Shown here piece after piece: positions 47,244 to 60,728 of a stretch of DNA of 64,000 nt (within the stretch, counting starts at the first letter, position 1; every line of letters starts with the position of its first letter). Below the pieces are notes generated by a model. That model was given only the letters and a program-made list of their open reading frames with translations. It was not told the DNA's origin and did not search any database. Made by a program: the position numbers and the translations under genes. Where the stretch lies: contig NZ_JACHMI010000001.1 of assembly GCF_014207985.1 (NCBI RefSeq), positions 1,719,001-1,783,000 on the forward strand, read 5' to 3'. Source of the stretch: Nonomuraea rubra (GTDB lineage: Bacteria; Actinomycetota; Actinomycetes; Streptosporangiales; Streptosporangiaceae).

Positions 47244-47706
47244 CTAGTTACGCACCTCTCGGTTGGAACCGGTTGCCGACTAAGGCGCGGGTGCGTACGC
47301 GCTACGAGTAGTTATACCTCGAATACACAAGACGACAAAGCTACACCGATATGACTGCCTCTTGTCGCACTGGACATGAATATTCCTCAAATGGTCTCTT
47401 ATGTCCTGTGGGGAGATATTTCTTGTAGCTCGACGATTATGGGTAACTGTTACCCTGCTTGGTGAAATGCGAAGAATCGACCAAGTCAACCTCTTCCCTT
47501 GCGAAGCGTTCCATGAGCTCTTTAATCCTGATGAGGCTGGTCACGGTAGGTGTGCACAGAGCGGTGGCGGGTGATGGGAGGTTCCCGGTAAGACACCCGT
47601 CGACCAGATCGGGGACAAGAGAGCGTCAACAACAGCGTGGTTGATCGTGAAACCTCGAGTTGGGAACCCGTTGTCGCGAAATCTAGTTGCGTACGGTGGC
47701 GGCCTG
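47244..47706. other. AT-rich regulatory gap with a 15-bp palindrome
   Basis: The lowest-GC part of the window. It contains the perfect dyad GGGTAACTGTTACCC at 47441-47455, probably an operator for the genes on either side (46587 on minus, 47707 on plus). No coding frame is convincing. Confidence 0.5.
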
Positions 47707-49230
47707 ATGTCATCTGGTGATATGCGTCGGTGGGCGAAGCTGAACGAGCGCCAGATGGCGACCCTGCGCCGCATCGCGGAGGGCGAATCGATCACCGCCA
47801 AGGACAGTGATTTAGCTCGTACCGTGTATGCACTCCGGGACAGGGGACTGGTTTCGACCCCACGGCGAGACGGGGTCTGGATCGCCGAGGTAACCGAGGC
47901 AGGACGCTTCTACCTCGAGCATGGCTACTATCAGGGCGCTGCGGCTCTGACATCTCCCACCGTGACTTCCAAGGGCGGAAGACGAACTGCCAGCCCGGGG
48001 CCGCCATCACCTCACGTTTTGGCGGCTGAACTGATTAAGCGCTTGCAGGACGAAGGGGGGACGCTGCATGTCCGTGACCCGGACGAGGCCACCAGGGCGC
48101 TTCATCGACGGGCATTGGACGCGGCCAAGCGCCAGGGATTGATCCCTGAAGGCTTCCGCCTCCTGCATACCGGTCGCGACCGCGGGGATCTCATCCTTCG
48201 GCTGGAGGATGCTACACATCCCGATGATACGGAGTGGAACCGCATCCGATTGAGCGCCCGTGACCTGATCACCGATCCTCACGAGCTTGCGGACTGGCTT
48301 AGGGAAGATCGTCGTTCGATCGACGTCACCGACGCGATGTTCGGCCGCGCGTTGGAAGTGGTACGCGCCTTAGCAGAGGACCTGTTGAAGCGGGGCCATT
48401 GCATCGGCATATCCAGGCGGGGCAAACCACGGGGCCTCTACGCGCACGCGCGTGGGCACCAGTACGCGCTGCACATCAAGGAGGAACTCGACCGCGTTCC
48501 TCACGTGTACACCGAAGAGGAACTCCGGAGCCGAAAGCTCTACACCTGGCAACGGGTCACGCCCGAGTACGACGAGGTCCCTTCGGGCCGGCTCAGGCTT
48601 GAGCTGGGGGAAGGACGCGGTCTGCAGTGCTGGGCGGACGACAAGCGTTCACGCGTGGAGGACAAGATACGAGCGGCCGTCAAGGAGATTGAGCGGCGCG
48701 CTGAGGCTGACCAGCAGGCACGCCTGGCGCGAGAGAAGGCTGAGCGCGAACGCGCTGAGAAGTGGCGACGCCAGGAGGAGGAACGGCATCGACGGGAGGC
48801 GGAGCGGCAAGCAGCGCGCGATAAGGAACGTGCGCAGGCCGCCGACCAGGCAAGGGAGGAGCATCGACGGCGAGTCTTCGGCCAGGCACTAGAGGGATGG
48901 GCCCGCGCCGCGGAGATCCGCGAATTCTGCCGGGGGCTGGAAGCACTTGCGGCGACTCTGCCTGCACAGGAGGCAACGATTACGCAGTGGGTGACGTGGG
49001 CGCGAGCACAGGCAGATCACATGGATCCCTTGCACACGCCGAGCGTGCTGACCGAGGCGAACTTCGACATCGAACCGACGCCGGAGGCCCTGCACCGCTA
49101 CCTGCGGGAGGAAAGTCGAGGCGAACGAGAACCACGACCAGAAGAACCCGCCGGCGTCAGGTACGACGATCTCTACCCATCAGCATGGCAATGGGGACGC
49201 CCAGGTCGCTCTCAATGGTGGCGGCGGTAG
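47707..49230 (+). CDS. Winged-helix plus coiled-coil protein of unknown function
   Basis: A 507-residue protein. Residues ~1-75 look like a winged helix that follows an ArsR/MarR-like course (RRWAKLNERQMATLRRIAEG, then VYALRDRGLVSTPRRDGVWI). Residues ~310-420 are a long, highly charged coiled coil rich in E, R, K, A and Q (REKAERERAEKWRRQEEERH). The C-terminus is tryptophan-rich. Such a DNA-binding head with a long coil may act in element maintenance or silencing, which is inference. ATG at 47707 is preferred; a TTG 22 codons upstream is possible. Converges on the next gene with 74 bp overlap. Confidence 0.68.
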   Translation: MSSGDMRRWAKLNERQMATLRRIAEGESITAKDSDLARTVYALRDRGLVSTPRRDGVWIAEVTEAGRFYLEHGYYQGAAALTSPTVTSKGGRRTASPGPPSPHVLAAELIKRLQDEGGTLHVRDPDEATRALHRRALDAAKRQGLIPEGFRLLHTGRDRGDLILRLEDATHPDDTEWNRIRLSARDLITDPHELADWLREDRRSIDVTDAMFGRALEVVRALAEDLLKRGHCIGISRRGKPRGLYAHARGHQYALHIKEELDRVPHVYTEEELRSRKLYTWQRVTPEYDEVPSGRLRLELGEGRGLQCWADDKRSRVEDKIRAAVKEIERRAEADQQARLAREKAERERAEKWRRQEEERHRREAERQAARDKERAQAADQAREEHRRRVFGQALEGWARAAEIREFCRGLEALAATLPAQEATITQWVTWARAQADHMDPLHTPSVLTEANFDIEPTPEALHRYLREESRGEREPRPEEPAGVRYDDLYPSAWQWGRPGRSQWWRR

Positions 49231-50011
49231 CCGTAGCCCCGCGCTTGCGTAGTGCCTCGACCGCCCGGTCCAGGAGCTTGCCAAGCCGCACAACCTCATT
49301 GCGCAAGGCGATCAGCTCATCGAACCGCTCAACGGCTTCCTGCCCGCACCACTGCCGCACCAAGGCGTGCACAGGTTCGCGCTCGCGCAGCCGTACCTTG
49401 CGTTCCTCCCGGGCGTCCGCCCAGGACGGCCGGTAAGGGTACCCGTAGAGGTTCTCCGAACGCAGTTCCGCTTCTTCCCGGTGGATCGCTTCTATGATCC
49501 CTTCGGAGAAGGTCGTAGCAATCGTCGGCATCAGCCGCCGTGCTGCCCGCCAAGGGCTGATCAGCGTCCCATGACGATCATGGAAGGCGAGAGGGTCGTC
49601 GGCTAGTTCTTCGACGGTGAGTCCCAGACGATCAGCTACCCCAGCAGGCTTGTCGATCCGCAGGACCCCCGTCTCGGTCTTGCTTCGTCCGAGGATCACC
49701 CGTCGGCCAAGCCCACAGACCTTCACGACGAGCAACGCGGCTTCGTACTCCACCGTGTCGCCAGCAGCAGACGATGCTTCTCTGACGGCCAAAAGGCGCC
49801 GCTCGTCGTTGAGCCGCGGTTCGATGTCGGTCCAGCGGTCGAGCAGAGAGGTGTAGGAGACCCATTCCTGTAGCCCAGCGTCGTCGCCGTCCAGCCGGCG
49901 AATCCTGATCGAGTCGTCGCTATCCCGAATCTTCACGATCGTGACGCGGTGCACGGGATCGCCCAGCGCCCTCGGCCGCTCGCGATAAGCCCACTCTTCT
50001 CCAACCTCCAT
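49157..50011 (-). CDS. Hypothetical protein (284 aa)
   Basis: A 284-residue soluble protein with an N-terminal beta-rich part (EEWAYRERPRALGDPVHRVTIVKI, WVSYTSLLDRW) and a C-terminal helical part (RFDELIALRNEVVRLGKLLD) with heptad character. I recognise no family. The ATG before EVGEEW is used. It faces the wHTH/coiled-coil gene tail to tail. Confidence 0.62.
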   Translation of the reverse strand: MEVGEEWAYRERPRALGDPVHRVTIVKIRDSDDSIRIRRLDGDDAGLQEWVSYTSLLDRWTDIEPRLNDERRLLAVREASSAAGDTVEYEAALLVVKVCGLGRRVILGRSKTETGVLRIDKPAGVADRLGLTVEELADDPLAFHDRHGTLISPWRAARRLMPTIATTFSEGIIEAIHREEAELRSENLYGYPYRPSWADAREERKVRLREREPVHALVRQWCGQEAVERFDELIALRNEVVRLGKLLDRAVEALRKRGATATAATIESDLGVPIAMLMGRDRRT

Positions 50012-50133
50012 GCCTGACAATAACTCCGACGGTGTTACCGCACGGTCACTTTGCGCGATATGCGGTCGGCTGCTCTGCTGCGACCGGTGATTCCTGTACA
50101 CGACGGGCGGAGCTGTATCAATCGGCAGCAGGC

Positions 50134-50298
50134 AGCAGCCGTGCTGACACCTACACCTCGGTCCTGCCCGAACTCCATCACGAGGCAGCTGAGGCCACGG
50201 CACGCCTGGTCCTCACCACAGTGCGAAAAACAGGTCATAGGTTGCAAAAGATAGCGATCCAGCTTCGGCGTCGTCCCACGAACCAGCCGCTACGCTGA
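50134..50298 (+). pseudogene. C-terminal remnant of a second tyrosine integrase
   Basis: The last ~50 codons read RADTYTSVLPELHHEAAEAT and then TARLVL, with a basic tail to the stop. This matches the end of the integrase at 43169 (TADTYTSVYPQVAMAAAEKT), including the nucleophilic tyrosine, but everything upstream is missing. It reads towards the tRNA fragment at 50407, the same geometry as the intact integrase and tRNA-Arg. Confidence 0.8.
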
Positions 50299-50406
50299 CT
50301 GCTTTGCCGGAAAGGCCTGGTGGTGCTGTTTTTCCCAGAAGTGACCCAGTTATGACCCACCTCTTGACTCTGCGAACGAGGTGGTGGGTGAACCTGCAGG
50401 TTGGAG

Positions 50407-50451
50407 TGGGAGGGTGCCCGGGGCTCGAACCCGGAACCTACGGATTAAAAG
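50407..50451 (-). other. tRNA 3' half (anticodon loop CTTTTAA) marking an attachment site
   Basis: On the minus strand: CTTTTAATCCG (anticodon loop and 3' stem), TAGGT, a perfect T-arm CCGGG-TTCGAGC-CCCGG, acceptor strand GCACCCT and CCA after one base. The loop spells TTT, so it derives from a tRNA-Lys(UUU)-like gene. No D-arm or 5' acceptor strand follows upstream. A break at the anticodon loop is the usual crossover point of tyrosine integrases, so this is an att scar. Confidence 0.78.
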
Positions 50452-50456
50452 GGGCG

Positions 50457-50486
50457 TTGATCAAGAAAGTCAGTCCGCTCTACACT
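50457..50486 (+). promoter_or_regulatory. Promoter of the Mrr-like gene next to the att scar
   Basis: TTGATC (50457-50462), 18-bp spacer, TACACT (50481-50486), then the ATG at 50495. Transcription would begin at or within two bases of the start codon. The -35 lies six bases beyond the tRNA fragment. Confidence 0.55.
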
Positions 50487-50494
50487 TTTCGCAG

Positions 50495-51751
50495 ATGATT
50501 GCATCGCGGATCGCACGGCCACTTCAGAGGAGCGTTCTTTCCTTGTCTTTCCCTCCCGGTGACATGGGCGCCGCCGTCGGCACGCACCTGCACTTCCAGA
50601 GACTGGAGCGGTTGCTGCATGAACGCCACCTCGATCTGGGCGACCGAGTCCACCTCAACTCCACCGGATCCCAGCCGTACCTGATGGTCAAACTGCCAGG
50701 AGACCGAGGGGTCGTGCTGAGCCAGTCAAGGCTCGGCCACGCATTGGTATGGCTGATCGTCGATCCAGTGCTAGGGAGTGAGCCCTCCATCTGGCCGCTG
50801 GACACATCCAGCGAGGTGCTCGTCGACGCCATTCACGCCCACGCTACTGCCCGCCTCGCCGGAGTGCCGGTAGCGTCGCCTTGGCGCTGGCACGAGAGCG
50901 AACCGTCGGACATGACCGAGCTCGCCGACCTCCTGTCCGAACGAGGAGTACACGTCCAACGGGTGGCGGCCGGGAACCGATACTTCGCCTATGGACCGCG
51001 CTACGAGCCCAAGCTCCACATCGCAGACGGGCACGAAGGAGCCTACGTCGAGGCCAGGCTCTCCGACATCTTCGTCCGGGTCTCCATCAAGGCCAGCGTC
51101 GGCTGGCTGGTCGACATATACGACCCGGAGCGTGAAGCTTGGACGCGTGTCGATCTCGGCGGTTCCCTAGGGCGCGGGAAACTCCCGACGCCGGGCATGC
51201 CGCGCGCCGACGTCCCTGTGAGTCGGATCGCCGACCTAATCTGCGACGGGCCGAAGGCGTGGGTCGAGAGCGGCGTTCCCTGGGAGACGTCCAAGCCGTC
51301 GCGAGCATCCGCCGAGACGTGGTCCGACGTAGAGGAATCTCTGTTCCTCACCGAGCCGGCCCTACGGCCGGCAGGCGCAAGGGAACACCTGGACGCCGTT
51401 CTGGAGCAGCTCGCGACCTTCGGCTTCGGAGACATCCGCGAAGGCGGACCGGACAGCCTGATTCACTCCGACACCTATCACGTCGATTGGAGCGGCCGGA
51501 CCAAGGACCTGTCGACGTCCGAGATCCAGCGGCTGAACGGCCTGGCCGCAGCGGCTGGCGAAGACCTGCCGAAAAGGCTGATCGTGATCACCAATGGCAG
51601 GATCAGCGGACCAGCAGCGGAGTTCGCGGACAAGGCCAAAGCATTCGTGTACGGCCTCAACCCCGCGACGGGCAGGCTCAATCCCCTGAACTCACGCGCC
51701 CGTGACCTGCTGCCGCCCCTCACGGAGCCGAGCAGATACATCCTGGAATAG
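50495..51751 (+). CDS. Protein with a C-terminal Mrr-like, possibly degenerate, nuclease domain
   Basis: A 418-residue protein I cannot place in a known family as a whole. The N-terminal ~300 residues are mixed alpha/beta (LMVKLPGDRGVVLSQSRLGH). Residues ~309-395 follow the order of Mrr-type restriction nucleases: strand, then DTYHVDWSGRTKDLSTSEIQ, LNGLAAAAG, and LIVITNGRISGPAAEFADKA, the 'IT.G.F...A...A' block of that fold. The usual QxK catalytic pair is not evident; the K in GRTKDLS and the Asp residues of SDTYHVD are candidates. The start is the ATG fitting the promoter at 50457; TTG 50543 and ATG 50564 are alternatives. Next to DUF262 and type I restriction genes. Confidence 0.68.
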   Translation: MIASRIARPLQRSVLSLSFPPGDMGAAVGTHLHFQRLERLLHERHLDLGDRVHLNSTGSQPYLMVKLPGDRGVVLSQSRLGHALVWLIVDPVLGSEPSIWPLDTSSEVLVDAIHAHATARLAGVPVASPWRWHESEPSDMTELADLLSERGVHVQRVAAGNRYFAYGPRYEPKLHIADGHEGAYVEARLSDIFVRVSIKASVGWLVDIYDPEREAWTRVDLGGSLGRGKLPTPGMPRADVPVSRIADLICDGPKAWVESGVPWETSKPSRASAETWSDVEESLFLTEPALRPAGAREHLDAVLEQLATFGFGDIREGGPDSLIHSDTYHVDWSGRTKDLSTSEIQRLNGLAAAAGEDLPKRLIVITNGRISGPAAEFADKAKAFVYGLNPATGRLNPLNSRARDLLPPLTEPSRYILE

Positions 51752-51958
51752 CTTGTGCCCTTCGGATGACGATGTCGCGAGGGGCTATGACCTTTGTCAG
51801 CTCCGCAAACGGTCGAGAGCGGTCGGCAGGTTGCCGTCGCTCCAGTAGTCCTCACGCCAGATGATCGTGGTCACCCCGACGGTTCCGACGAAGCCGGACA
51901 GGTCACCCCTCCGGTGCTTCGGGTGACAACGGCGGGGCGTTCGTGAAAATCTTGGGGT

Positions 51959-53653
51959 ATGTCGCCGATCCCCCATGAGCGCGCTCACCGCCCCCAGTTA
52001 GAGAAGATCACCGAGCTCGCGTCGCGGGTCAAAGCGGGGGAGATCAGGCTTCCGAAGTTCCAGCGGCAGTTCGTGTGGAAGGGCCACCAGGTCCTCGATC
52101 TCCTCGACTCGATCTCACGGAACTACCCGATCGGCAGCCTGTTGCTGTGGGACAGCGAGTTGCGGCTGGCGAGCGACCACGACATCGCGGGCATCGAGAT
52201 CGACCAGGCGCCGAACCGTGAACGTACTGCCTACCTGCTCGACGGCTGCCAGCGTCTGTCGACTATCTGCGGGGCACTGTACTGGGAGCCGAAGGGTGAT
52301 CCGAAGAGCCTCTGGAACCTGGTCTATGACTTCGAGGAGGAGCGTTTCGCGCACCGGAAGGACTTCGACGAGCCGCCCGCGCACCAGATTCCGCTGAGGC
52401 TGCTCGCCCAGCCCTACCAGTACGCCAAGTGGGCTTCGAAACGGCTTCCTGATGAGTTCGAGGAGGCGGCGGGGCAGCTGTTCGACAACTTCTCGAACTA
52501 CGAGACCTCGGTCGTGACGCTGAAGACGGCCTCGATCACTGAGGTCGGCCGGATTTTCGAACGGGTCAACACTCGCGGCACACCGCTGACGGCGGTCCAG
52601 GTCATCCGCGCGGTGACTTGGCGCAGCGACTTCGATCTCCTCGACGCCATCGACGGCGTCCGCGACGTGCTCGCGGCCAAGAACTACGGCTTGATCGACC
52701 AGATGCTGCTACTCCGCGCGATCTCGGCGGCGGCCGGGCTCGGGTTCGCCAAGTCCGACATGGAGCAGCTGCCGTCCGTTGGCCATGAACGTCTCCTGGC
52801 GGCCATCGAGGAGACCGAGGAGGCCGCAAAGAAGGCCGTGGACTTCCTCACCACCGAGATAGGCACTCCGACGGCCGCCGCGCTTCCCCACGCCAACCAG
52901 CTCGCCGTCGTCATCGAGATCTTCCGGCAGATCCCGAGGCCGAACGGCAAGCAGTTCGCCCAGCTCCGCAGCTGGTTCTGGCGGACGGTCCTCGGCGGCT
53001 ACTACGAGGGCTGGAATCCCCGGAAGATGGCGGCGGACCTCGCGGCGGTGACGGCGTTCGCGAAGGGCGAGACCAAGGGCATCGAGGTGGACGTTCCGCC
53101 GCCCAGCACGCGGCTGTGGGCGGGTAAGTACGATCGGGGCACCGCGCCGCAGAAGACGTTCGCGCTCATGCTCGCGGCACGGGGCCCCGTCGACCTGATC
53201 ACCGGGGCAGCAATCGACGTGGGAAAGACGCTGGCCGGGGACAACTACCTGCAGTTCCACCACTTCTTTCCCAAAGCGGCCCTCCTACGCGACGGCATCA
53301 GGTTCGAGCAGGCCAACGTCCTCGCGAACATCGTCATGCTGACCGCGATCAGCAACCAGAAGATCTCCGACCTGCCGCCGTCCGCCTACCTGAAGGCCGA
53401 AATCGACTTCAGTGACGAACGGACGATCCGCGAGCGGCTCGACACCTGCCTCGTCTCCGCGCCCGCTTTCGACGCGGCCATGCGTGGCGACTACAAGGCG
53501 TTTCTCGCCGCCCGGTCGGAGACCCTGCTGGATTGGGCTAGGGATCTCATCCAGCGCGGCCTGGCGACGGAGGCCGCGCCGGTTGAGCTCGACGAGGAGA
53601 GCCTGCGGCTCGCGAACGAGGTCGAGGTCGTGGACGAGGACACCGACGACTGA
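51959..53653 (+). CDS. DUF262/HNH (GmrSD-like) defence nuclease
   Basis: A 564-residue protein. The N-terminal DUF262 (ParB-like NTPase) has LPKFQRQFVW at 31-40 and DGCQRLSTI at 95-103, where the family normally has DGQQR. The C-terminal part holds a DUF1524-like HNH block, FHHFFPKAALL at about 433-443 with NVLANIVMLTAISNQKI after it. This is the GmrSD/type IV restriction layout, which cuts modified phage DNA, in a single chain. The Cys in place of the first Gln of the nucleotide motif is worth noting. It stands alone, between the Mrr-like gene and radC. Confidence 0.87.
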   Translation: MSPIPHERAHRPQLEKITELASRVKAGEIRLPKFQRQFVWKGHQVLDLLDSISRNYPIGSLLLWDSELRLASDHDIAGIEIDQAPNRERTAYLLDGCQRLSTICGALYWEPKGDPKSLWNLVYDFEEERFAHRKDFDEPPAHQIPLRLLAQPYQYAKWASKRLPDEFEEAAGQLFDNFSNYETSVVTLKTASITEVGRIFERVNTRGTPLTAVQVIRAVTWRSDFDLLDAIDGVRDVLAAKNYGLIDQMLLLRAISAAAGLGFAKSDMEQLPSVGHERLLAAIEETEEAAKKAVDFLTTEIGTPTAAALPHANQLAVVIEIFRQIPRPNGKQFAQLRSWFWRTVLGGYYEGWNPRKMAADLAAVTAFAKGETKGIEVDVPPPSTRLWAGKYDRGTAPQKTFALMLAARGPVDLITGAAIDVGKTLAGDNYLQFHHFFPKAALLRDGIRFEQANVLANIVMLTAISNQKISDLPPSAYLKAEIDFSDERTIRERLDTCLVSAPAFDAAMRGDYKAFLAARSETLLDWARDLIQRGLATEAAPVELDEESLRLANEVEVVDEDTDD

Positions 53654-53729
53654 GGTCCGGGCGGCGGTGTCCGGGCCGGTCACGTTCTGTCGGTGCCGGA
53701 TGGTCTCCTAGTGGCGGGAGGTGAGTCCG

Positions 53730-54383
53730 ATGCGCGTCACTGATCTGCCCGAGGCCGATCGGCCCAGGGAACGGCTGCTTGAGCACGGCCCGCGTGCGCT
53801 TGCCGAGCGGGAGCTGCTGGCGCTGGTGCTGGGTGAGGGCCGTCCCGGCGTGGACGTCATCGAGCTGGCGTCCCGGTTGCTCGCCGACCATGGCGGGCTG
53901 GCCGCGGTGGCGGCGGCCGATCCGGGCGCGCTCCAGCGGTCGGCGGGGATAGGCCCGGCCAGGGCGGCCCGGCTGACGGCGGTGTTCGAGCTGGCGCGAC
54001 GCGCGGCCACGCCGCCGCGCCTCGGCCGGATCACGGCCACCGAGGACATAGCGGTCGCCGCCGCACCGCTGCTGCGTGGTCTCCGGCACGAGAGGGCGGT
54101 CGTGGTCGTCTGCGACGCCGGCGGCCGGATCCTGAAGACGGCCACGCTCACTGATGGCGCGGCGGATCGCACCCAGATCCCAGTCCGCGACGTCCTGAGC
54201 CTGGTCCTCGCTCTGGGCGGCGCCCGTTTCGCAGTAGCGCACAACCATCCGAGCGGCCGGACGGAACCGAGCGAGGCGGATGTCCGAGTGACCGCCCGCC
54301 TCCGCGAGGCCGCGACCACGGTCGGGCTCCGCCTGCTCGACCACGTCATCGTCACCGAGACTTCGTGGGCCAGGATCCCGTGA
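53730..54383 (+). CDS. radC: RadC family JAB-domain protein
   Basis: A 217-residue RadC (UPF0758) protein. Helix-hairpin-helix-like segments occupy residues ~20-95 (RSAGIGPARAARL) and the MPN/JAB core has HNHPSG at 171-176 with PSEAD ending at Asp184, the metal-binding JAMM pattern. Function is debated; its old DNA-repair role is doubtful and it often travels with mobile elements. The ATG at 53730 is preferred over a GTG at 53721 because GGGAGG lies 9 bases upstream of the ATG. Confidence 0.9.
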   Translation: MRVTDLPEADRPRERLLEHGPRALAERELLALVLGEGRPGVDVIELASRLLADHGGLAAVAAADPGALQRSAGIGPARAARLTAVFELARRAATPPRLGRITATEDIAVAAAPLLRGLRHERAVVVVCDAGGRILKTATLTDGAADRTQIPVRDVLSLVLALGGARFAVAHNHPSGRTEPSEADVRVTARLREAATTVGLRLLDHVIVTETSWARIP

Positions 54384-54633
54384 CCATCGCACCGGTGCCG
54401 GTCCAACCGGTGGGGACGGCTCGCACAAGCCCATCCGGTCGCCGGCCTCGACGAGCCTGTTGGGCGGCCCCGGCAGATAGGCCACCAGCTGCCCGTCGCA
54501 CGCCCGCACCAAGCCCACACGCCAGGAGTCCGTAGACGAGGCTCCATCGACGGACTCCCTCGCACTCCCGTTCGGTGAGCTCCTCTCGCAGCTCAAGGCC
54601 GTCACTTGGATGAAGTTAACGGAAGGACAACGA

Positions 54634-54827
54634 GTGACTCGCGAGGTCGCAGACCTGGAGTGGCGAAAGATCAGTTACAGCGGTTCCAGCGCCGCATGCG
54701 TCGAGCTCGCCTCTCTCCGGCACCACATCCTGGTCCGCGATGCCAGGAAACCCGGCGAGGGCCTCTGAATGTCACGGACACCGACTCCCATTCGCTCTTC
54801 GTCGCGATCTGCGCCCACCGGCCCTAA
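54634..54827 (+). pseudogene. DUF397 protein, frameshifted
   Basis: A GTG with a GGAAGGA site 6 bases upstream opens MTREVADLEWRKISYSGSSA, CVELAS and HILVRDARKPGEG, the DUF397 signature. The frame stops after GEGL at 54766-54768, but the -1 frame continues PLNVTDTDSHSLFVAI to 54827, the normal family ending, for a total near 65 codons. One base has been lost near 54760. DUF397 genes normally follow an XRE regulator; none is present upstream here. Confidence 0.8.
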
Positions 54828-54866
54828 CGAACGATCCGTGCGAGGTCGGGCAAGCTGCGCCCCCAC

Positions 54867-56003
54867 TCACAACCGCCCACTGAACGCCGCATTCAGCAGC
54901 GAATTGGTTAGAGTAACGCCCAGGTCCGCCTGCTGGTTTGAACGGTTTTGCGTGTCCCCAAGCCGGTCCAGCATTTGCGCGATTTCCTCCTGCCGCCTTT
55001 TGCTGGGAAGAGCAACCGAGAGAGACTCGAAGTCCTTCATCGAGAGGGTCTGGTTCCGAAGTACCGTTCCCGTGGATGTGCTCCGGATGAGGTCGCGGCC
55101 CGCGCGAGTCTGAAAGAAGTAATTGAGGTATCGGATATCAACTGCATCCGACGGGCGGTAGGTCAAAAAGCGGTGCGACCCGATGAATCCTGACTCGTTG
55201 GTGCCGGAGATGGCAATTGCGCCCTCCCAAGCCATTATGTTGCTTACTATCAGACGGTCTGGATGGATCTCGAAGTACTTGAGCTTGCTGAGCTCGCTGC
55301 CGAGAACTGGCGGGCGATGGAATATGCCTTTTCCGAATGAGCGGATTCCAATCTGCGAGTACTGCGCGTCTGGTTGAGGTGTCACAGGGATCCGCTCGAG
55401 GCTTAGCACGTTCCCCAGACGAGTCGGCGCATTGCCTTGCTCTTCATGGAACACGGAATCGCGAATTGCGACGCGGAGAGCTTCCGCGCGAGAGCGAAGC
55501 TTGGCAAGCTCACCAAGCTTCGCCGTGGCCGCGTCGAGGCGGGCGGCGATGCGGCGCTGCTCGTCCAGGTCTGGCAGGGGGACTGGGGTGGACATGAGGG
55601 TGGCGGGGGTGGTGCGTTTGCGGCGCACCATGGAGCCGCGCGGGGTGAGGCGGTCCCATAGTGGGGGCCAGCTGACGAGGTGGGAGATGTAGCGGACGTC
55701 GGCTTCCGCCTCGATAATGTCGAAGACCGGGTATTCCGGGGAGACGTGCGCTCCGGAGAACTCTTCGGGGACGACGGCCAGTGCCCCTTCCCAGGCGTTG
55801 AGTTTGCTCATCACGAGCTGACCGGTGGTGAGACGGCTGAGCGCCTTGTAGGCGGTTTCGTTGCCGGTGATGGTCGGGCGTTTGATCAGGCCCTTGCCGA
55901 AGCTGTAGATGCCCGCGATGCGGTATTCGTGGTCGGCATTCACAGAGACCGAGCAACGCGCGAGCGTGATGGCCTCACCGAGGGGGCGTTCCGGAAGCGC
56001 CAT
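54867..56003 (-). CDS. hsdS: Type I restriction-modification specificity subunit
   Basis: A 378-residue HsdS with two target-recognition domains separated by a helical spacer (LPDLDEQRRIAARLDAATAKL) and a second spacer at the C-terminus (RRQEEIAQMLDRLGDTQNRS). The two target domains resemble each other: IYSFGKGLIKRP and IRSFGKGIFHRP, then MSKLNAWEGALAV and SNIMAWEGAIAI. Two like half-domains would recognise a near-palindromic bipartite site. Its ATG overlaps the hsdM stop. Confidence 0.9.
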   Translation of the reverse strand: MALPERPLGEAITLARCSVSVNADHEYRIAGIYSFGKGLIKRPTITGNETAYKALSRLTTGQLVMSKLNAWEGALAVVPEEFSGAHVSPEYPVFDIIEAEADVRYISHLVSWPPLWDRLTPRGSMVRRKRTTPATLMSTPVPLPDLDEQRRIAARLDAATAKLGELAKLRSRAEALRVAIRDSVFHEEQGNAPTRLGNVLSLERIPVTPQPDAQYSQIGIRSFGKGIFHRPPVLGSELSKLKYFEIHPDRLIVSNIMAWEGAIAISGTNESGFIGSHRFLTYRPSDAVDIRYLNYFFQTRAGRDLIRSTSTGTVLRNQTLSMKDFESLSVALPSKRRQEEIAQMLDRLGDTQNRSNQQADLGVTLTNSLLNAAFSGRL

Positions 56004-57478
56004 CAGCGGTCCTCCACGTCTTTCTGGAGAGAGGTGAGAAGGCTGAGGACCTCCTGCTCGGTTTCGATCAGCTCGGCAAGGAGTTCGGTTGGCGACCGGT
56101 GCAACAGGTTGTCGATGGTGTTCGGGTTGGTGAGGTCGAGGTTGAAGCCGGAGGCCAGGAGGTCGGCGATCGGAACGCGCCAGGCGCGGTCGTTCTCGGT
56201 GCGGTCGGCGCGCTCCGGGCCGCCCCACCATGCGGCGGTGGACTCGAATTCCTCGTAGCGCATGGGCCTGGTCTTGGCGTAGCCGCGGCTGCCCTCGGGT
56301 GGGGTGATCTCGTAGAACCAGGTTTCCTTGGTGGGGCTGGTCTTGTCGAAGAAGAGGAGGTTGGCGGGGATCTGGGTGTAGGGCGCGAAGACGCCTTGGG
56401 GGAGGCGGACAACGGTGTGGAGGTCGCACTCCTCGAGGAGTTGTTTGCGGATCTTGGCGCCGATGCCCTCGCCGAAGAGGGCGCCGTTGGGAAGGACGAT
56501 GGCGCAGCGGCCGCCCTGCTTCAGTTTCTTGATGACGGCGTGGAGGAAGAGCCAGGCCGTTTCGCGGGTCTGGTAGCCGGAGGGGAAGCTTTTGGCGATC
56601 GAGTCCTCCTCTTCGCCGCCGAAGGGCGGGTTGGTGAGGATGACGTCGACCTGGGAGCCGGGACCCTTCTCGTCGATCATCACACGGAGGGAGTTGGCGT
56701 GGAGGACCTTCGGGGAGGGGATGCCGTGCAGGGTCAGGTTCATCATGCAGAGCAGGAACGGCAGGGGCTTCTTCTCGATGCCGCGGATGTTGTTGAATAG
56801 CTGCTGTTGGAGGACCCTGCTGGTGGCCTGCGGGATCAGCTCGGTGTATGCCTCGACGAGGAAGCCGCCGGTGCCGCACGCCGGGTCCATGATCGACTCG
56901 CCGAGCTTTAGGAAGGTCTGTTCGACCATGAAGCGGATGACGGGTCGCGGGGTGTAGAACTCGCCGGAGTCGCCCGCGGCGTCGCGCATCTGCTTCAGCA
57001 GGTCCTCATACAGGAACGCCATCGTGTGGATGTCGTCGCTGCTGTTGAAGTCGATGCCGCGGATCTGATTGACCAGGTCGCGGAACAGGTAACCCGACAG
57101 CATGCGGTTCTGGACGCCGGCGAATACCTGGCCGAGGACGTTGCGCGGGTCGCCAGGCACGTCACTGCGCATGCTCGCGAGTTCGGGCAGAAGCTTGCCA
57201 TTGACGAACGCCAGCAGTTCCGCGCCAGTGAACGTCTCGTCGTCGGCCCAGGCCCGCCACTGGTACTCCGGTTTGATGATCGGGTCTTCGCCGAACACCT
57301 CGCGTTCGGCCTCCAGCGCGTCGAAGGAGCGCAGGAACAGCAGCCAGGACAGTAGAGGCAGGCGGTCCAGGTCGCCGTTGAGGCCCGCGTCCTTGCGCAT
57401 GATGTCGCGGGCCGACTTGATGACGGCCGACAGACGGGCGCGGGAGGTCGCGTCCTGCTTCTTCGCGGGTGAGGCCAT
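56003..57478 (-). CDS. hsdM: Type I restriction-modification DNA methyltransferase subunit
   Basis: A 491-residue adenine methyltransferase. The HsdM helical N-terminus is followed by the SAM motif DPACGTGGF at 198-206 and the catalytic NPPFGG at about 283-288. It methylates adenine with HsdS as the specificity partner. The ATG follows a GAAGGAT site; the stop overlaps hsdS. The AbiEi-like gene is 5 bp upstream, so these three genes form one transcript. Confidence 0.94.
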   Translation of the reverse strand: MASPAKKQDATSRARLSAVIKSARDIMRKDAGLNGDLDRLPLLSWLLFLRSFDALEAEREVFGEDPIIKPEYQWRAWADDETFTGAELLAFVNGKLLPELASMRSDVPGDPRNVLGQVFAGVQNRMLSGYLFRDLVNQIRGIDFNSSDDIHTMAFLYEDLLKQMRDAAGDSGEFYTPRPVIRFMVEQTFLKLGESIMDPACGTGGFLVEAYTELIPQATSRVLQQQLFNNIRGIEKKPLPFLLCMMNLTLHGIPSPKVLHANSLRVMIDEKGPGSQVDVILTNPPFGGEEEDSIAKSFPSGYQTRETAWLFLHAVIKKLKQGGRCAIVLPNGALFGEGIGAKIRKQLLEECDLHTVVRLPQGVFAPYTQIPANLLFFDKTSPTKETWFYEITPPEGSRGYAKTRPMRYEEFESTAAWWGGPERADRTENDRAWRVPIADLLASGFNLDLTNPNTIDNLLHRSPTELLAELIETEQEVLSLLTSLQKDVEDR

Positions 57479-57483
57479 TGTCG

Positions 57484-57963
57484 TCAGAGATCCTTCTTCG
57501 TCGGCTGGATGTTCAGATCGATGAGGGTGCGGGCGAGAGTCGTCACGCGGAAGCCATCGCGGTGTTCGACGTCGGCGGGGGACAGGTCGGCGCGGTGGGT
57601 GAGCACGGCCGGGTCCCGCTGGCGGAATCCGGGCGGAACCGTCATGTGCACGACAGCCGGGTCGACCGGCGCGAGGCCGTGGACGCTCAGGGCTGTCTCG
57701 TGGGAGAAGACCGCGCGGTCTAGGCTCCACAGGGACCAGCGGACCAGATGGTCGAGGTCGCTCGGCGGGAGGTCGGCGTATTCGCGGAAGCGGTACAGGC
57801 CCCGGTCGATGCGCGTCCAATTGCCCCGGCGGACGTGGAAGTACTGCGACTGATAGGAGTAGCCGTCGAGCAGCGCCTGGGCCGCCGTGAAGAAGCCGCG
57901 CTGACGGGCGGCCCGGCGCCAGAGCCGGGTCCGGGGTTCCTCTTCCCGCTGCCTCACGGCCAC
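57484..57963 (-). CDS. AbiEi-like antitoxin-domain protein within the type I RM locus
   Basis: A 159-residue protein with the AbiEi N-terminal winged helix (RRAARQRGFFTAAQALLDGY, then RRGNWTRIDRGLYRF) and the start of the effector-like domain (FSHETALSVHGLAPVDP, RVTTLARTLIDL). AbiEi is the DNA-binding antitoxin of the type IV abortive-infection system AbiE, paired with the nucleotidyltransferase AbiEii. No AbiEii follows; hsdM does. The end is short for the family (about 190-200 residues), so the last helices may be lost. It probably regulates the RM operon. Confidence 0.82.
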   Translation of the reverse strand: MAVRQREEEPRTRLWRRAARQRGFFTAAQALLDGYSYQSQYFHVRRGNWTRIDRGLYRFREYADLPPSDLDHLVRWSLWSLDRAVFSHETALSVHGLAPVDPAVVHMTVPPGFRQRDPAVLTHRADLSPADVEHRDGFRVTTLARTLIDLNIQPTKKDL

Positions 57964-57982
57964 AAGGCTAGCGCATATGAAA

Positions 57983-58000
57983 CTTATAGTCGCTTTTAGT
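57983..58000. promoter_or_regulatory. Direct-repeat operator candidate before the AbiEi-like gene
   Basis: CTTATAGT (57983-57990) and CTTTTAGT (57993-58000), two 8-mers with one mismatch, in an AT-rich gap of 80 bp between hsdR and the AbiEi-like start. On the minus strand the first contains TATAAG, a plausible -10 box for abiEi-hsdM-hsdS. Confidence 0.45.
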
Positions 58001-58043
58001 TTTGTGCACGATGCGGATCTCGTCTGGTCCGCCCCAAAAGAAC

Positions 58044-60503
58044 TTAGGAGGCTTCGTACAGCTGAGTGCGCAGGTGGTCGACGGCGGTGCGCAGCCCGGC
58101 GCCGGAGCGGTCACCGAAGAGCTCTGCGATCTCGACGACCGTGCCGAACTCCTGGTAGGCAGGGGAGTCCATGGACTGAACTTCCAGTTCGCTCTCATCG
58201 TGTGCGGAATACTGTGCCAGCACGCGTTCGAGGATCGCGCGGGCCTCAAGGGCGAACGACTCCAGGAACTCACGGTGCTGGAGCTTGAAGCGGAGGGCGC
58301 GTTCGGAGCGCGACAGCACGGGGAGGCCCCAGCCGAGATAGATCAGCAGGTCGATGGCGTCGGCGTCGGGACGGCCCGTCAGCTCACCAAGGTCGGCTGT
58401 GCTGATCCCGATGTCCTCCAGGCGCTCCCGCAGCTCTTTACGACTCTGGCTGTGCGCCCACTGGGCAAGCAGCTGGTGCGGGGACAGGTCGAGCTCGTGC
58501 AGTTTGTCCTTGATGAACTGCTCCAGCCGCACGAGGCGCAGCCGCAGGCCCGTTCCGTCAGCCTCGGTGATGTAGACGGCCGAACCGAGGATGTTCACCT
58601 CGACGTCGTCTATATAGAGGGTGCGGCCCTCGGCGCGGATGTCGTCGATCTCCTCGCCGTCGGTGATCATCGGCGGAAGGTCACCGCCGTCGTTACTTTC
58701 ATACCCAGCCTCGGGCTCGGCCGCCTCGTCGGGGTCCGGGTCGGGCTCGATGTCGAGGTCCTCGGGAAAGGTGATGAAGCTGCCGTCCGGGTCTGCCTCG
58801 TCGCGGAGCCGTCGGAGCGGCGGGCCATCGAACTTGGGGTCGTAGAACAAGCGGGTCGCGTCCACGAAGTCGATGATGTCGAACGCGAACTTGCCGGTCT
58901 CGGGCGACAGGCGGGTGCCGCGACCGATCGTCTGCTTGAACTCCGGCATCGAGCGGATCACCCGAAACAACACGATGTTGCGGACGGTCGGGATGTCGAC
59001 GCCCGTCGACAGCATCCGCGACGTCACCGCAATGACCGGGACCTCGGAGGCGTCGTCGCGGAATTCATCCAGACGCTCTCGGCCGGCCTCGTGGTCGTCT
59101 CCGGTGATCCGGCAGACCCACTTGTGGCCGTACCGCTGCGACAGGTCGGCGTTTGCGCGGGTCAGCGCCTCGACCATGCGCATCGCGTGGTCGTTGGTCT
59201 GGCAGAACACGATCGTCTTGTGCATGCGGCCGGTCTTGTGTAGATACTCCGTCAGGTAGCGGGCTACCTCGTCGGTGCGGTCGAGGATCGCCACGACCCG
59301 CTCGAAGTCCTTCGGCCCGTACAGCTCGTCGGGGATCTCCCTGCCGTACATGTCGAGCTGACCTGTGTCCGGCCGCCAGCCGTACAAGTCAATGTCGATC
59401 CGGACGTTGCGGACCCGGTAAGGGGCGAGGAAACCGTCGCGAATGCCCTGGGCGAGGGAGTATTGGTAGATCGCGTCGCCGAAGTAGTGGTAGGTGTCGA
59501 CGTCCTTACGGCTGATCGGCGTGGCCGTCAGTCCCAGTTGGACGGCGGGCTCGAAGTACTCCAAGATCTCGCGCCACTGCGAGCCCTCCGCGGCGCTGCC
59601 CCGATGGCACTCGTCGACGATGATGAGGTCGAAGAAGTGCCGGTCGAACCTCGTGTAGAAGTCCTGCGCCCCGCCAGGCTGTGACAGTGACTGATACAGC
59701 GCGAAGTAGATGTTGCGGCTCTTCTGCACTCTGCCCTGGCCGAGCCGGTGGACGGCCTCGCCGAACATCTCGGTGAAGTAGTCGTCCTTGGGCTGGTCGA
59801 TGAGGATGTTCCGGTCGGCGAGATACAGGACACGGGGCCGCCGCCCCTTTTCTGGCCAGTTTGCGTTCCACAGTTTCGCGACGATCTGCGCCGAGACCAG
59901 AGTTTTGCCCGTGCCGGTGGCCAGCACGAGGAGCAACCGTCGTTGCCCCTTGGCGATGGACTGGACGGCTCGGTTGATCGCGTTGCGCTGGTAGTAGCGG
60001 GGGTCCTTCGGAGTGCCGTCCCAGTTGCGGGTCAGTATGAACGGCGCGGATGCCAAGTCGGCATGAGCGTCGTCGGCGAGGGATCGGTCATCGCGGTACC
60101 GGGCCCAGAGCTGCTCCGGTGTGGGGAACTCTGAGATCTCTGAGATCAGGCCAGTCCGGTAGTCGATCTCGATGGTGCGGGTGCCGTTCGTCGAGTAGGC
60201 GAATGGGACGTCCAGTAGCTCGGCGTAGCGTTTGGCCTGCTCGAAACCCTCAGCGGGATCAATGCGGGAGCGTTTGGCCTCGACGACGGCGAGCGGTAGG
60301 CCGTCGGAGTGCTCCAGCACGTAATCGGCGATCAGTGGGCGTTGCTGATGGTGGCGGCGGGCGGTCGGCTGGATCCGGCCGCGGTTGATCCGGTACTGGC
60401 TCTTGACCTGGTCTTCTACATTCCAACCGGTCCGGACGAGAGCGGGCAGGACGAACCGCTTGCAGGTCTCGTCCTCGGTGGGATTGCCGCTACTGGAAGT
60501 CAC
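58044..60503 (-). CDS. hsdR: Type I restriction endonuclease subunit
   Basis: An 819-residue HsdR. The N-terminal nuclease core shows Asp60 and the E-x-K pair in VVEAKR (about residues 75-77). The helicase has Walker A LATGTGKT (195-201), DECH at 297-300, and TATP in LGLTATPIS. The C-terminal third matches the EcoEI-type HsdR C-terminal domain. It cuts unmodified DNA after translocation. GTG start. Lies upstream of abiEi-hsdM-hsdS on the same strand, separated by 80 bp. Confidence 0.94.
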   Translation of the reverse strand: MTSSSGNPTEDETCKRFVLPALVRTGWNVEDQVKSQYRINRGRIQPTARRHHQQRPLIADYVLEHSDGLPLAVVEAKRSRIDPAEGFEQAKRYAELLDVPFAYSTNGTRTIEIDYRTGLISEISEFPTPEQLWARYRDDRSLADDAHADLASAPFILTRNWDGTPKDPRYYQRNAINRAVQSIAKGQRRLLLVLATGTGKTLVSAQIVAKLWNANWPEKGRRPRVLYLADRNILIDQPKDDYFTEMFGEAVHRLGQGRVQKSRNIYFALYQSLSQPGGAQDFYTRFDRHFFDLIIVDECHRGSAAEGSQWREILEYFEPAVQLGLTATPISRKDVDTYHYFGDAIYQYSLAQGIRDGFLAPYRVRNVRIDIDLYGWRPDTGQLDMYGREIPDELYGPKDFERVVAILDRTDEVARYLTEYLHKTGRMHKTIVFCQTNDHAMRMVEALTRANADLSQRYGHKWVCRITGDDHEAGRERLDEFRDDASEVPVIAVTSRMLSTGVDIPTVRNIVLFRVIRSMPEFKQTIGRGTRLSPETGKFAFDIIDFVDATRLFYDPKFDGPPLRRLRDEADPDGSFITFPEDLDIEPDPDPDEAAEPEAGYESNDGGDLPPMITDGEEIDDIRAEGRTLYIDDVEVNILGSAVYITEADGTGLRLRLVRLEQFIKDKLHELDLSPHQLLAQWAHSQSRKELRERLEDIGISTADLGELTGRPDADAIDLLIYLGWGLPVLSRSERALRFKLQHREFLESFALEARAILERVLAQYSAHDESELEVQSMDSPAYQEFGTVVEIAELFGDRSGAGLRTAVDHLRTQLYEAS

Positions 60504-60512
60504 CCCTCATTT

Positions 60513-60728
60513 CTACCTGGAGGGTGTGACAATTTCCGGACTATCGATCCCAAACCCCCTTTGAACGCGGGTTGGATCTTCGGCAGGATGACCGGAAACT
60601 ACCTCAGACCGGCAGACCTGCCGAATCACCTGGCTAGCCAGCCACCGGAGGTCGGTCGTCAGCGCCTCATCCTCGATTGTCAGCAACGAAGCCAGCAGGT
60701 TCGGCAGTGCGCCTGCGGATAATTGCAT
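60513..60728 (-). CDS. Possible small protein upstream of hsdR (71 aa)
   Basis: A 71-codon frame starting MQLSAGALPNLLASLLTIED, with a helical, acidic middle. It ends 10 bp before the hsdR start on the same strand, which would fit a regulator or leader protein, but no domain is recognisable and the ribosome site is weak. It may be chance. Confidence 0.3.
   Translation of the reverse strand: MQLSAGALPNLLASLLTIEDEALTTDLRWLASQVIRQVCRSEVVSGHPAEDPTRVQRGFGIDSPEIVTPSR

Follow-up and report, generated by a model that had tools for sequence, protein, structure and literature searches.

A candidate accessory component of actinobacterial McrBC operons with a nuclease-like C-terminal domain in Nonomuraea rubra

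The 64,000-nucleotide stretch of the Nonomuraea rubra genome analyzed here (contig NZ_JACHMI010000001.1, positions 1,719,001 to 1,783,000; hereafter the window) carries, between a tRNA-Lys attachment (att) scar and a DUF262 gene, an open frame on the forward strand with its stop at 51751 (Table 1). A sequence-only reading of this DNA had taken the frame for a new defence effector with an altered Mrr-like nuclease domain and had noted a DUF262 nuclease gene behind it. The frame is a genuine gene, with 84 homologues found in a search of 5.8 billion proteins in which the 7998 candidates sharing most words were scored. By comparing loci of the family, we arrive at a different view, to which we give about even weight: the protein belongs to an undescribed actinobacterial family that serves McrBC type IV restriction operons as an accessory, third component.

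McrBC is a two-gene system in textbooks and is treated as a two-protein machine. We examined 27 full-length loci of the family, of which the genome collection contributed 21, retrieved with two peptide patterns, and other genomes the remaining six; partial, interrupted, contig-end and weak-match loci (L015, L020, L025, L026, L027, L039, L069, L074 and L081) were left out, as were duplicate fetches, e.g. L036, which equals L019, and L071-L072, L076-L080 and L082. In 19 of these 27 loci, mcrB (GTPase) and then mcrC (nuclease, PF10117) lie downstream of the family gene on the same strand. Measured to the start of the McrB match, the gap is 74-124 bp in 13 loci, 229 bp in one, 532-552 bp in four and 894 bp in one; the McrB or McrC match falls into two pieces at L009, L012 and L024, and McrB likewise follows the partial copies L026 and L074. 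The family precedes two types of McrB that differ in their N-termini and share 36-39% identity in the AAA region. The first type (nine loci) matches only AAA domains in Pfam, together with PD-T4-1 and PDC-S02 in PADLOC, and has a distinct N-terminal part that we read as EVE/YTH-like, while the second (ten loci) carries DUF4357. In a tree of the family, whose root is a drawing midpoint and whose branches are long, McrBC-linked members stand on either side of the root, and the association may therefore be old and repeatedly lost. At the level of gene order, these loci show an association of the family with McrBC, and the defence setting expected by the sequence-only reading is also seen where McrBC is absent, with pPIWI-RE, type I restriction-modification (R-M) or UvrD helicase genes nearby.

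Several of the McrBC islands also hold UvrD-like helicases, N6-methyltransferases, a DrmMI-like methyltransferase, a DpdE/DrmD-like helicase or SMC-like ATPases. Five loci (L014, L016, L023, L073 and L075) share the order DrmMI-like methyltransferase, XRE regulator, family gene, McrB, McrC, UvrD and HsdM-like methyltransferase, with a DpdE/DrmD-like helicase before the first methyltransferase in L023, an arrangement that looks like a larger McrBC supersystem. At L007 (11830-12029), where a second, intact McrBC lies beyond the family gene, two short matches to one McrB type (22 and 21 residues) stand in the space between them and suggest a deletion between tandem McrBC operons.

The family has no name in the libraries searched. 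Of the 84 homologues, four are called restriction endonuclease or Mrr in their source and the rest are hypothetical, uncharacterized or unnamed; none has a precomputed Pfam domain, and neither NCBIfam nor PADLOC holds a family that matches the protein at E<=1. Pfam gives only Mrr_cat (PF04471) on the C-terminal block (E 0.12, 13 bits, below the curated cut-off of 21) and nothing outside this stretch; the N-terminal half matches nothing in these libraries. Matches, partial copies included, occur in 6 of 345 genomes of the order (its own genome counted), 4 of 394 of the class and 15 of 394 from the family of G589.

AlphaFold2 (AF2) models, with a mean predicted local distance difference test score (pLDDT) of 85.8 and 87.6, divide the protein into two N-terminal domains, a low-confidence linker and a C-terminal domain. 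R28, W70, W84 and T88 are invariant in domain 1, and W116, D129, N145, G187-W188 and R202 in domain 2. The C-terminal domain has the predicted fold of PD-(D/E)XK nucleases, and its likeness to them is better in fold than in sequence: it shares with Mrr_cat and NucS/EndoMS a predicted alpha-beta-beta-beta-alpha-beta core and the block 'VIT..G.s.pA..FA..A', yet differs from them by its sub-threshold Pfam score, by the absence of a canonical D...(E/Q)xK motif from the place assigned to it and by the large N-terminal half without known relatives. The Mrr-like C-terminus that had been read from the sequence is thus upheld by the predicted fold, which is of Mrr type and not an unrelated one, whereas its sequence likeness stays below the Pfam threshold.

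With this in mind, we inspected the putative active site in an alignment of the close family (A2, 85 rows, 82 of them with letters at position 315) and in one of 28 diverse members (A4). In the former, the strand expected to hold (E/Q)xK mostly reads FHIEW and continues with H, R or S. None of the 82 rows, and none of the 28, has lysine at 317, the lysine position assigned from the predicted strands, and the replacement of the usual QxK noticed in the single sequence thus holds at this position in both alignments; 8 of the 82 rows and 4 of the 28 show a [DEQ]-x-K triplet somewhere within 305-324, at varying places. Among the diverse members, 23 columns are invariant, 15 in the N-terminal half and eight in the C-terminal domain, where S309 is the sole polar one; among the polar residues of this domain, only D297, S309 and R345 reach 85% conservation across the rows. 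Hence, judging from these alignments, the common function of the family probably does not depend on nuclease chemistry in the C-terminal domain, which is itself probably inactive as a nuclease. Since the nuclease-like tail probably lacks a cutting site, a helper is likelier than a new cutting enzyme.

We propose that the two N-terminal alpha/beta domains would be the working part of the protein, with McrB, McrC or the DNA complex as their binding target, while the C-terminal domain, a dead or nearly dead PD-(D/E)XK fold, may offer a docking surface for nucleic acid or protein; DNA cleavage in the operon would then be left to McrC. From this helper mechanism, which we infer, we tentatively extend the reading, with somewhat less than even confidence, to a portable adaptor for restriction machines: a pseudo-nuclease and third McrBC component whose N-terminal module McrBC systems with unlike McrB heads have in common and which can come apart from these systems. 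Its other settings would be a life on its own or beside a weakly HEPN-like protein that has an EVE-like part, a protein with weak HEAT-repeat matches, pPIWI-RE or type I R-M.

Such settings are seen in the eight of 27 full-length loci in which McrBC does not adjoin the gene. At L037 (1097-3700) the next gene downstream encodes a weakly HEPN-like protein (sub-threshold in Pfam) whose C-terminal part is similar to the McrB part preceding the GTPase domain, and at L038 its neighbour is a 768-residue protein with weak HEAT-repeat matches. The gene lies downstream of a complete three-gene pPIWI-RE module at L010 and of a type I R-M operon at L070; L013 has coiled-coil and UvrD genes within a few kb, L068 a convergent UvrD neighbour, L021 a vWA-domain gene and L002 a DUF262 context as in the window.

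These eight loci weigh against a role as McrBC component, and so do several further observations. The count of 19 is adjacency in a non-random set gathered mostly by two peptide patterns, without a control for chance adjacency; the base rate is one McrC in the own genome and McrC in one of six other genomes searched. On the tree, 99 of 500 shuffles cluster the McrBC label as well as observed, with L037 wrongly labelled McrBC and label-change counts therefore slightly off. Furthermore, no McrC was found anywhere in G159 (N. jabiensis), G119, G098, G589 and G882, which all carry the family gene (G119 and G882 being drafts of hundreds of contigs), so that the protein can exist without McrBC. As to the inactive tail, the mean majority share is 0.55 in the C-terminal domain against 0.50 and 0.53 for the rest; being as conserved as the rest on average, the domain is not simply decaying. 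In addition, an acid at 304, an acid at 315 and K321 are kept together in 45 of 82 close rows, and a rearranged active site is therefore conceivable in the close clade.

The last two points lead to the strongest rival, near to what the sequence-only reading had in mind: the protein would be an active nuclease whose PD-(D/E)XK site has been rearranged (an acid at 304, D or E at 315 and the lysine moved to 321), working as an additional DNase beside McrC or alone. The predicted fold matches that of active nucleases, the gene also occurs in some genomes where no McrC was found, and the window protein is among the 45 rows, with D304, H313, D315, S317 and K321 near the usual site; H313 and K321 recur in 78 and 74 of the 85 rows, respectively. 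However, the three residues occur together in just 5 of the 28 diverse members and an acid at 315 in only 10, and 4 of the 19 McrBC-linked members lack this acid. The widely conserved polar residues of the domain are only D297, S309 and R345; the substitute set is not family-wide, and we regard an active nuclease as unlikely; the nuclease effector imagined from the sequence is not supported.

In the window itself, DUF262 and not McrBC adjoins the gene, and the sole McrC found in the genome is ~0.53 Mb away. The gene and its N. jabiensis counterpart are thus orphans beside a tRNA-Lys att scar and would either retain an independent or borrowed function or relax slowly. A second rival goes further and holds that the gene is here a non-functional passenger, a remnant after McrBC loss or dragged along by att recombination. 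Its orphan state is in line with this, as is its dN/dS (nonsynonymous to synonymous substitution ratio) of 0.43 against N. jabiensis, a rough value from only 36 changes, compared with equally rough values of 0.12 (DUF262), 0.15 (RadC) and 0.18 for three more constrained neighbours; several relatives are present only as partial or interrupted copies (L015, L025, L026, L027 and L081). Yet the frame is intact in two species with a ratio below 1, which indicates constraint, and full-length close homologues exist in Microbispora, Actinacidiphila and Streptomyces. We consider a passenger still less probable than an active nuclease.

Least probable of all is a two-gene type IV system of the gene with the DUF262 (GmrSD-like) protein in Nonomuraea, for although the DUF262 gene comes next, as had been noticed, co-directional, 207 bp on and in an arrangement that N. 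jabiensis shares, the loci of these two Nonomuraea species are almost copies of each other (94-96% DNA identity), only 2 of 18 genomes with DUF262 relatives carry the family, none of six other DUF262 loci has the gene, and DNA similarity to G044 begins at 51878, between the genes, with a separate promoter-like site at 51923 in the promoter scan. The 18 genomes are those, among 342 of the order, with DUF262 relatives at E<=1e-60; the two shared ones are G000 and G159, the genome handles suggesting that both searches covered the same genomes. The six loci come from 16 other genomes; RadC stands beside DUF262 in five of them and HsdR is present in five. A constant linkage, as would be expected of a two-gene GmrSD system, is thus not observed, and the DUF262 gene, although a type IV enzyme of this kind does follow in the window, belongs to another cassette, of DUF262, RadC and type I R-M genes, which is found without the family gene.

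A likely false pairing of the gene with DUF262 is herewith corrected. Of the undescribed system once supposed here, the novelty persists, no library name having been found, whereas neither the nuclease effector nor the DUF262 partnership is supported. Under the preferred reading, as an McrBC accessory protein, a recurrent extra protein before McrBC with two McrB heads suggests a helper or regulator in many actinobacterial versions, which experiments using McrBC alone would overlook. The family protein is distinct from both McrB and McrC. According to the part of Bell et al. 2024 (PMC11090510) considered here, McrBC-type assemblies hold inactivated PD-(D/E)xK domains that are proposed to bind nucleic acids, and a dead nuclease fold as helper would extend this series. 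In the systems described there, which include CoCoNuTs, the dead domain lies within the McrC homologue, whereas here it is in a separate protein; nor is the CoCoNuT NxD motif of the partner McrB-like GTPase seen, 18 of 19 partner McrBs having the ordinary NxxD (GTMNTADRS) and L019 being missed by the pattern. The same part reports DISARM-like or methyltransferase neighbours of McrBC and announces a separate paper on those groups; it does not describe the family protein, which may nonetheless already be known to its authors.

Table 1. Features of the locus (positions in the window)
Feature	Position	Strand	Evidence
tRNA-Lys 3' fragment (att scar)	50412..50451	-	40 bases, one mismatch to intact tRNA-Lys elsewhere in the same genome
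Promoter-like TTGATC-18-TACACT, sub-threshold	50457..50486	+	sequence reading, 8/12 matches; not listed by promoter scanner
Family gene, TTG start most likely, 402 residues	50543..51751	+	homologue starts, Shine-Dalgarno-like AGAGGAG
Alternative start ATG	50564	+	16/84 homologues
N-terminal domain 1, alpha/beta, residues 1-112 (our boundary)	50543..50878	+	AF2 models, conservation
Domain 2, alpha + mostly beta, residues 113-243 (our boundary)	50879..51271	+	AF2 models, conservation
Low-confidence linker, residues 244-276	51272..51370	+	pLDDT <50 over 244-274
C-terminal PD-(D/E)XK-like (Mrr/EndoMS-type) domain, residues 277-402	51371..51748	+	AF2 model, fold comparison, alignments
DUF262/GmrSD_N protein (PADLOC PDC-M55C), judged outside the system	51959..53653	+	Pfam, PADLOC
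RadC neighbour	53721..54383	+	Pfam; adjoins DUF262 in 5/6 other loci
Type I R-M HsdS, HsdM, AbiEi-like, HsdR	54867..60503	-	Pfam, NCBIfam, PADLOC, locus comparison

While the frame and its end were read correctly from the sequence, the start chosen there (ATG 50495) is probably wrong, as it would add 16 residues absent from most homologues. Of the 84 homologues, the first residue corresponds to TTG 50543 in 51 and to ATG 50564, seven residues further on, in 16 (including the 95% identical P0002), and lies earlier in six and later in 11. The Shine-Dalgarno-like AGAGGAG (50526-50532) lies 10 nt 5' of TTG 50543, and the 'FP' right behind this codon is nearly invariant in homologues; from these comparisons, TTG 50543 is most likely the true start. 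Because the start moves there, leaving a leader of ~50 nt, the near-leaderless promoter once suggested falls; its TTGATC-18-TACACT also stays below the scanner threshold of nine matches.

The att scar, in contrast, is confirmed by the tRNA-Lys fragment. In the window, the open frame at 47641 precedes DUF262, whereas in G044 the stretch 47681-50124 lies on the other side of HsdR, with HsdR followed by the 47641 frame; the block 47681-60592, compared with L094 and L100, is thus circularly permuted between the window and G044, the pattern that different opening points of a circular element would produce. A tRNA-Lys lies on the same G044 contig ~15 kb past the block, which suggests a mobile element with tRNA-Lys att sites. 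Together, the fragment and the permuted block place the gene, which lies outside the similarity to G044, at an att scar that adjoins a cassette of mobile appearance. DUF262, RadC, HsdS, HsdM, AbiEi-like and HsdR genes (51959-60503) co-recur in Streptosporangiales genomes and may form one cassette that combines type I and type IV restriction. Within HsdS, DNA similarity to N. jabiensis stops (54902-55516) and protein identity is 62.6%, against 97% for HsdM and HsdR, a break fitting an exchange of specificity domains.
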